Assembly (NCBI GenBank): GCA_024224665.1
Contig: JAAENG010000379.1
Coordinates: 1 to 41,200, forward strand
Direction: 5' to 3'
Length of the DNA stretch: 41,200 nt
DNA from: Chloroflexota bacterium
GTDB taxonomy: Bacteria; Chloroflexota; Anaerolineae; J102
Shown here in pieces: positions 16,441-27,497 of the stretch; within the stretch, counting starts at the first letter, position 1; the number at the start of each line of letters is the position of its first letter. The notes under the pieces were generated by a model that saw nothing but the letters and a program-made list of their open reading frames with translations, was not told where the DNA came from and did not search any database. The translations under genes and the position numbers were made by a program.

Positions 16441-16584
16441 CTAGTACAGCGAGGCGTAAATATCCGGTATTTTTCTAGCGCTAGCCGCATCCGAGATGCG
16501 GCGGGTTTGAGTGGCATCCCGCCGGGTCACGGACCCGGCTAGCGCAGTAGAAACCGTTGACTCACTTACGCCGACGTGTACTAG
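16441..16584. mobile_element. Cloverleaf MITE, copy 1 (CTAG-bounded, IS630/Tc1-like target)
   Basis: This 144-bp element starts and ends with CTAG. Its terminal inverted repeats read CTAGTACAnnnnnGGCGTAA. The core folds perfectly: GCGCTAGCC (16478-16486) pairs with GGCTAGCGC (16537-16545). Inside are three abutting hairpins: GCATC/GATGC (16487-16499), GGCGGG/CCCGCC (16500-16523) and GGGTC/GACCC (16524-16536). No base is unpaired at the four-way junction. Two more copies occur in the window. It lies 48 bp upstream of the DUF1269 operon. Confidence 0.88.
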
Positions 16585-16586
16585 TA

Positions 16587-16684
16587 GGAGTTACGCAGCT
16601 AAGCTGAATCTGATCTCGAATGACTGGCTTTCACGAGAAAGACAAGTGCGGAACTTGATAAAATCGTATCAACTGCGTAACTCC
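16587..16684. mobile_element. 98-bp non-autonomous element with 12-bp perfect terminal inverted repeats
   Basis: GGAGTTACGCAG (16587-16598) and CTGCGTAACTCC (16673-16684) are exact inverted repeats. The interior has no coding frame. It is wedged between two copies of the cloverleaf element. Its ends resemble those of the element at 11112-11292, so both may depend on the same transposase, which is not in the window. Confidence 0.75.
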
Positions 16685-16724: not shown

Positions 16725-16869
16725 CTAGTACAGCGAGGCATAAATATCCAGATATTTTTCTAGCGCTAGCCGCATCCGAGATGCGGCGGGTTTGAGTGGC
16801 ATCCCGCCGGGTCACAGACCCGGTTAGCGCAGTAGAAACCGTTGGCTCACTTACGCCGAAGTGTACTAG
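16725..16869. mobile_element. Cloverleaf MITE, copy 2
   Basis: This is nearly identical to copy 1 and lies in the same orientation. One change in the outer stem (GGTTAGCGC) leaves a G-U pair, and one change falls in a hairpin loop, so the fold is kept. Its right CTAG overlaps the TAG stop codon of the symporter gene at 16866-16868. Confidence 0.87.
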
Positions 16870-17783
16870 GCCGCTGCGGCCGCGGCCTCCTCAACCGGTG
16901 CTCCCTCCTCCCCCTCATCATCTCCTTTACCGAACCAGGAGCCTACAACCGTGCCAACGACGATCTGTACGAAGATCAGGGCCACGGCGACTCCCAGGAT
17001 TGCGGGATCATTGTCGAAGGCGATGGCGATGGCGGCGAAGACAGGCCCAGCGTTGCTGCCGGGCTCGATCATTGCCGTCGCTTTGCGCACCGGACTGCCA
17101 CCCCTGGAGATAAAGTAGCCCAGCGCGATCATGATGATGACGAACAGCGCCTGCGCCAGAATCGCACGATCACCGAGCAGGTCCAGGATGATGCGGAAGC
17201 TGCCCAGCAGGGCCAGCACGATAACGATCAACAGCGTAATGTTGGCAACTTGCTGGACCGTCGGTCTCCATTCCATTGCGTTCTTGGGCGTCCAGTGACG
17301 CACGGCCATGCCCACCACAAAGGGAACAATCTGCAAGACGGCCACTGCTATGATCAAATCCGCAACCGGCAGCGCGAAATTATCACCCAGGCCGGCGGCG
17401 CCGATCATAAAGTTGGCCATGGGCGCGAACGTGAAGCTGCCGATAATCGCCAGCAGCACCTGCAACCCAGCGGAGGTGGTGAGATCGGCTTTGGCGCTCA
17501 TCGCAAACTTGACGCCCAGTGGCGCGCCCGGGACAGCAGCCAGCAGCAGCATCACGATATAGGACGCCGCCGAGAGGCTGAAGATAGCCGACAACCCCCA
17601 GCCCACCAGGGGCCGCAGGACAAAGGCGGTGATCAAGACCAGGATGAGCAACACGACGTTCTTGAAGACCGATCCCAGGGCTTTCGTTGTTGTCGCCAGG
17701 CCGGCGGCAAACATCGTGGCCATAATCATGATGACCAGCGAGGCATTGAATAGTCCGCCCATCAGGGCTTGGACAGTTTCCAT
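16866..17783 (-). CDS. Bile acid:sodium symporter (BASS/SBF-like) family transporter
   Basis: This 305-aa integral membrane protein has about 9-10 hydrophobic helices and belongs to the SBF-like (BASS, Na+-dependent organic anion) superfamily. Recognisable blocks include 'LVIMIMATMFAAGL' in the first helix, a PGAPLG turn near 85-90 and 'SNAGPVFAAIAIAF' in the late crossover region. Eukaryotic members import bile acids or steroid sulfates with Na+; bacterial ones carry organic anions such as pantoate or pyruvate. The C-terminus is an odd Glu/Ala-rich tail ending in six Ala. The stop TAG lies inside the CTAG end of the adjacent MITE, so the natural C-terminus may have been altered by the insertion. 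The ATG at 17783 follows AAGGAGA. Confidence 0.82.
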   Translation of the reverse strand: METVQALMGGLFNASLVIMIMATMFAAGLATTTKALGSVFKNVVLLILVLITAFVLRPLVGWGLSAIFSLSAASYIVMLLLAAVPGAPLGVKFAMSAKADLTTSAGLQVLLAIIGSFTFAPMANFMIGAAGLGDNFALPVADLIIAVAVLQIVPFVVGMAVRHWTPKNAMEWRPTVQQVANITLLIVIVLALLGSFRIILDLLGDRAILAQALFVIIMIALGYFISRGGSPVRKATAMIEPGSNAGPVFAAIAIAFDNDPAILGVAVALIFVQIVVGTVVGSWFGKGDDEGEEGAPVEEAAAAAA

Positions 17784-27179: not shown

Positions 27180-27324
27180 CTAGTGCATCGATGCATAAAT
27201 ATCCAGATATTTTTCTAGCGCTAGCCGCATCCGAGATGCGGCGGGTTTGAGTGGCATCCCGCCTGGTCACGGACCCGGCTAGCGCAGTAGAAACCGTTGA
27301 CTCACTTACGCCGAAGTGTACTAG
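27180..27324. mobile_element. Cloverleaf MITE, copy 3
   Basis: Its sequence matches copies 1 and 2 and it lies in the same orientation. The outer 9-bp stem and first two hairpins are intact; the last hairpin has one T/C mismatch (TGGTC against GACCC). The left end differs (CTAGTGCATCGATGCATAA). ACTAGTGCATCG occurs on both sides of the element (27179-27190 and 27320-27331). Confidence 0.87.
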
Positions 27325-27497
27325 TGCATCGTCAAGCCTTAAATTTCGGATCATTTCCCTGCTGAGAAACCCGAATTTTTAATGTAGCTGATGTACTAGG
27401 GCAAACCACGAGGCTCGCGCAAGCCGCCATGAATAACCTTCTGTTCAATTGACCACAACAGGAAGGAGTAGAGTTCGGCTGGTGTTCGCCGGCGTGT

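Follow-up and report, generated by a model that had tools for sequence, protein, structure and literature searches.

The copying of REPINs is thought to rely on a REP-associated tyrosine transposase (RAYT) encoded in the same genome. REPINs, or REP doublets, consist of two inverted REPs and a spacer, show compensatory changes and have arrays adjoining the RAYT gene (PMC3116915; Nunvar 2010, PMC2817692); they fold either as a long hairpin or as a less stable 'clover', and it was the clover on which the RAYT was proposed to act (Bertels and Rainey, 2011; PMC3116915). IS630-derived MITEs, as which the Correia and RUP elements have been named (PMC2817692), are short and non-coding, with inverted ends matching IS630 and a TA within CTAG. 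A 2013 paper cites Nezha of cyanobacteria as a MITE and, in one passage, places a REP or REP dimer inside a longer palindrome in A. variabilis (GTAG-15), T. roseum (GTAG-23) and H. neapolitanus (CGTC-1) (PMC3733652). REPINs, RAYTs and IS630 MITEs are each already known, and the repeat described here shares the listed features of both REP doublets and IS630-derived MITEs. What is new, and sets it apart from the former, is that a predicted REPIN fills a DDE-transposon MITE of IS630 type and occurs many times over in genomes that yielded no cognate RAYT; in addition, its REP heads are GCTC or GCGC in contrast to the classical GTAG. Unlike the IS630-derived MITEs, its interior appears to be a REPIN and not an IS remnant. 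The enclosure of a REP or REP dimer by a longer palindrome is common to the 2013 elements, for which that passage gives no transposase link, whereas the arms here correspond to IS630 ends and complete IS630 elements bearing those ends were found. A search of open-licence papers, including REPIN/RAYT together with MITE and RAYT together with Chloroflexi, found none in which an IS630 MITE is described as having a REPIN for its interior.

The window, that is, the whole stretch of 41,200 nucleotides analysed, carries three full-length copies of the repeat at 16441-16584, 16725-16869 and 27180-27324, exactly where the original prediction had placed them. No other full copy was found in the 5.77-Mb assembly of the same genome, where the full copies show 100, 95 and 94% identity. 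The element is 144-145 bp long, has no coding capacity and is dispersed, with more copies in relatives. Every window copy has CTAG at its left and right ends and a core of 68 bp at its centre (16478-16545, 16763-16830 and 27218-27285). On comparison of these sequences with those of related genomes, each copy is very probably a composite non-autonomous element, with IS630-type terminal inverted repeats of ∼33 bp each and a REPIN as its whole interior. In copy 1, read on the plus strand, the left repeat (CTAGTACANNNNGGCGTAAAT...) occupies 16441-16473 and its minus-strand counterpart 16552-16584. The core between them has a 9-bp outer stem (GCGCTAGCC/GGCTAGCGC) and comprises the REP 1 hairpin GCCGCATC-CGA-GATGCGGC at 16484-16502, a middle hairpin of the REP tails (GGCGGG/CCCGCC) at 16500-16523 and the REP 2 hairpin GCCGGGTC-ACG-GACCCGGC at 16521-16539, which is in minus orientation and reads TCCGTGA on that strand. 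Copies 2 and 3 lie in the same orientation as copy 1, and the REP 2 loop of copy 2 is ACA.

The interval separating copies 1 and 2 contains a further inverted-repeat element (16587-16684), with the ends GGAGTTACGCAG...CTGCGTAACTCC. The right CTAG of copy 2 (16866-16869) provides the TAG stop of a minus-strand open reading frame at 16866-17783, so that the insertion sets the C-terminus of that protein. Copy 3 is adjoined by a second small CTAG-ended element of ∼79 bp (27319-27400, CTAGTGCATCGTCAAGCC...GATGTACTAG), the CTAG being common to both, and contig C68 of the window's genome carries two relatives of this small element, with 95% and 92% identity (L049, positions 311-391 and 609-687).

The repeat had been predicted to be a MITE with an IS630-type parent, and this was borne out by complete IS630 elements of 1,328-1,342 bp with matching ends in sister Anaerolineae genomes (L185, L186 and L193). 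Their ends are CTAGTACA...AAAT inverted repeats as in the MITE, and each carries a helix-turn-helix reading frame and an overlapping DDE_3 reading frame in another frame (Pfam run on L185), an arrangement that would reflect a programmed frameshift. The predicted target, CTAG with a putative duplication of TA, agrees with the CTAG seen at both ends of all copies. The MITE arms are similar to the IS630 ends as far as a common GGTT at position ∼31-33, and in 14 distinct elements from several genomes the distance from either end to the start of the core is 36-39 bp; the shell is thus an IS630-type MITE made up of two IS630 ends of ∼33 bp, with none of the transposase gene left. With up to two mismatches, the end motif CTAGTACANNNNGGCGTAART was found 18 times in the genome of the window, 24 times in G008, 74 in G014, 51 in G113 and 41 in G162, and the reversed motif used as control gave 0-3 matches per strand and totals of 1-4 per genome in the same five genomes. 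Contig edges of G113 that bear the shell end continue into a transposase gene, the family of which was detected in 26 of the 396 genomes of the class using its C-terminus as query. Of the genomes that share these ends and have related cores, those with a name belong to Caldilineaceae and other Chloroflexota, from which the class was taken to be Anaerolineae. DDE_3 matches in the genome of the window (C628), in G113 (C75) and in G162 were rejected as parents, as they represent other IS630 lineages and no matching ends were seen. Also observed, at L085 and in the flanks of L005, were a different IS630 lineage in G113 and small CACTAGTGTCCCGTCA-ended elements that likewise use CTAG.

Hairpins of the kind found in the core also occur beside RAYT genes. 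In G127 and G073, arrays of alternating TCCGTGA/TCACGGA hairpins lie on both sides of a small HUH transposase (RAYT) gene, and TCCGTGA/TCACGGA hairpins are likewise found on both sides of the RAYT of G157. One G157 hairpin has the stem GCCGCATC, identical to that of REP 1 in the window, and another has the tip TCTCGGA, the complement of the TCCGAGA of the window. In G014 the hairpins flanking the RAYT are GCCGGATnTGCGATCCGGC and GGCGGAACGCACTTCCGCC, and the core of the IS630 MITE in that genome has the stems and tips of the GCCGGATnTGCGATCCGGC hairpin. Scores with the NCBIfam model for REP-associated tyrosine transposases (REP_Tyr_transpos) were 81.6 bits for G073, 85.5 bits for G014 and 78.8 bits for G127, the last being just under the cut-off of 80 bits, and the RAYTs of G127, G073, G157 and G014 form one clade (support 100/99). 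As the same hairpins stand beside RAYT genes and the four RAYTs belong to one clade, the core is read from its sequence as a REPIN composed of two inverted REP palindromes. A first RAYT check, covering six genomes, had detected no hairpins with the TCCGTGA tip next to Y1_Tnp genes. Several further RAYT genes of the class (L350-L368) are flanked by hairpins of their own, often with complementary-tip partners, such as GCCA/TGGC in G227 and AACA/TGTT in G098.

The core hairpins of relatives vary in their stems and are constant in their tips (TCCGTGA/TCACGGA). When the hairpin pattern was counted in 396 genomes of the class, matches were concentrated in a few of them (104 in G073, 85 in G113, 64 in G286, 49 in G162, 40 in G008 and 32 in G145), with controls giving 0-1 in these six rich genomes. 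The hairpins form inverted pairs separated by a short spacer, the whole pair measuring 68 bp in the window and mostly 47-94 bp in relatives, and are bounded by GCTC...GAGC or, as in the window, by GCG(C/T)...GCGC. Assignment to the GTAG-tagged REPs was rejected, the unpaired GTAG head being absent and the heads here being GCTC or GCGC/GCGT. In two pairs of otherwise similar elements (L110 versus L119, and L272 versus L288), the tip of one REP is inverted, TCCGTGA becoming TCACGGA, which suggests inversion or template switching within the hairpins. Of the 72 matches listed in repeat-rich genomes, 68 have paired bases at the two variable stem positions, versus 11 of 61 in genomes poor in matches (Fisher 7e-21, a value that serves only as a guide because related copies are included in the counts). 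The compensatory changes to which the original prediction had looked for support are thus present, relatives keeping the stems through them.

Such covariation could stem from template-switch correction of palindromes, not from selection by a RAYT, and the core might accordingly be mere MITE filler, its palindromes perfected at replication by quasipalindrome correction so that stems covary without any function. Loop inversions and arms collapsed to a single hairpin were seen (L159, L382 and L383), as template switching would give. This process explains the upkeep of the stems, but not the same tips and heads flanking RAYT genes of one clade, and it leaves unexplained the REPs that occur outside the MITE and between other inverted repeats; we therefore regard it as unlikely.

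Regarding its geometry, the core can be drawn as predicted, as a four-way junction in which a 9-bp stem encloses hairpins of 5, 6 and 5 bp with no unpaired base at the junction, and the single G-T pair in the outer stem of copy 2 and the single T-C mismatch in the third hairpin of copy 3 (its REP 2) were confirmed. Folded as RNA, all three copies are far more stable than their shuffles (z = −7.6, −5.3 and −4.7; 0 of 200 shuffles equally stable), and the minimum-energy fold is the cloverleaf in copy 2 only. In copies 1 and 3 an unbranched long hairpin is favoured over the cloverleaf by 5-6.5 kcal/mol (−48.2 versus −41.7 kcal/mol in copy 1, and −43.6 versus −38.5 kcal/mol in copy 3). The position of the junction is not fixed, because the REP is an 8-bp hairpin able to borrow 3 bp from the adjacent stems. 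The cloverleaf had further been taken for an unexplained junction with a purpose of its own, resembling a Holliday junction or a tRNA-like RNA. This part of the prediction was not supported, since a core made of two inverted REP palindromes would take on this geometry by its make-up, no further purpose being needed, and REPINs are known to have a hairpin and a 'clover' as alternative folds (PMC3116915). The outer stem would be formed by pairing of the two inverted REP heads (GCGCTAG...), the side hairpins by each REP folding on itself and the middle hairpin by pairing of the inverted REP tails.

The strong fold, the G-U pair of copy 2 and the compensatory stem changes between genomes would also be expected of a structured RNA, either a tRNA-sized cloverleaf or an RNA regulator spread by the MITE, whose stems are kept by selection on the RNA. 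An Rfam scan of the window gave no match, however, and a tRNA search of the window was empty. The same hairpins adjoin RAYT genes as tandem REP arrays, the orientation of a REP can flip (as between L110 and L119, or L272 and L288) and the long hairpin is favoured in two of the three copies, so that this explanation appears very unlikely. A role of the core as a DNA cruciform, whether as the target of a structure-specific nuclease or as a site of recombination, is hardly credible. A fully paired junction able to branch-migrate by 3 bp can be drawn, but only this geometry speaks for a cruciform. Two inverted palindromes are enough to account for it, and in G162 the REP pair can even stand in direct order (L110).

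The preferred reading, a REPIN within an IS630-type shell, was also considered in the light of where either part occurs by itself. REPINs free of IS630 ends and bounded by GCTC...GAGC are present in G113 (L377-L379), and IS630-ended MITEs with other cores were found in Calothrix and Desmonostoc (Cyanobacteria), in Nitrospinota and in Desulfuromonadales; these occurrences point to two mobile modules that are independent of each other and joined in one composite element. Other inverted repeats, too, enclose REPIN cores, and at least three further pairs were found: AGATCACA... in G145, GTACAGGTTCAGT... in G246 and GTATCCTCTCA... in G162, G081 and G127. Across genomes, the REPIN in the IS630 MITE always lies mid-element, within 1.5 bp, a constant position that fits either one ancestral fusion or insertion at the centre of a palindrome. 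Among the loci retrieved, no 'empty' MITE of the same backbone without the core was found. In Nitrospinota, IS630-ended MITEs with a GTCATTGCGAG...GAAGCAATC palindrome as core were observed (L264, L270 and L280), perhaps another dispersed palindrome in an IS630 shell.

With regard to the enzymes that could serve the two modules, the metagenome-assembled genome (MAG) to which the window belongs yielded no IS630 element with these ends and no intact cognate RAYT, and no RAYT in it is flanked by these REPs. The closest RAYT there is a pseudogene of 40% identity with an internal TAG, the REP tip of which is TGGC. As neither helper was found intact in this genome, the three copies of the window are probably stranded. 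In seven genomes in which the REPs are present (G113, G008, G162, G286, G246, G393 and G378), no member of this RAYT family was detected at E ≤ 1e-20; absence from MAGs is weak evidence, but G113 and G008 are 98% and 96% complete. Such REP-bearing genomes suggest that the IS630 shell may allow REPINs to spread without a RAYT of their own.

In the mechanism that we propose, an IS630 (DDE) transposase supplied in trans would move the whole unit between CTAG sites, and the REPIN fixed to the shell would thereby be copied without its own RAYT. The REPIN inside would be a present or past single-stranded recognition substrate for its RAYT, an HUH tyrosine transposase, and could alternate between the long hairpin, as an inert state, and the branched clover; on this view the RAYT would act, or have acted, on a REPIN enclosed in the MITE. 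More tentatively, Anaerolineae REPINs may have escaped dependence on their own RAYT as cargo of DDE-type MITEs, the at least four inverted-repeat backbones that carry a REPIN between their arms being dual-system elements that spread in genomes lacking a cognate RAYT, perhaps through insertion of REPINs at palindrome centres or through the seeding of such centres by them; we hold this to be possible, with the balance somewhat against it.

If REPINs are indeed carried by an IS630 MITE, they would have a second way of spreading, which would account for REP-rich genomes that yielded no cognate RAYT. The RAYTs of G157, G127 and G073, together with their defined hairpins, offer a clean system for asking whether the clover form is what RAYTs act on, and equally whether REPINs settle at the centres of palindromes, as scattered remarks in the literature suggest.
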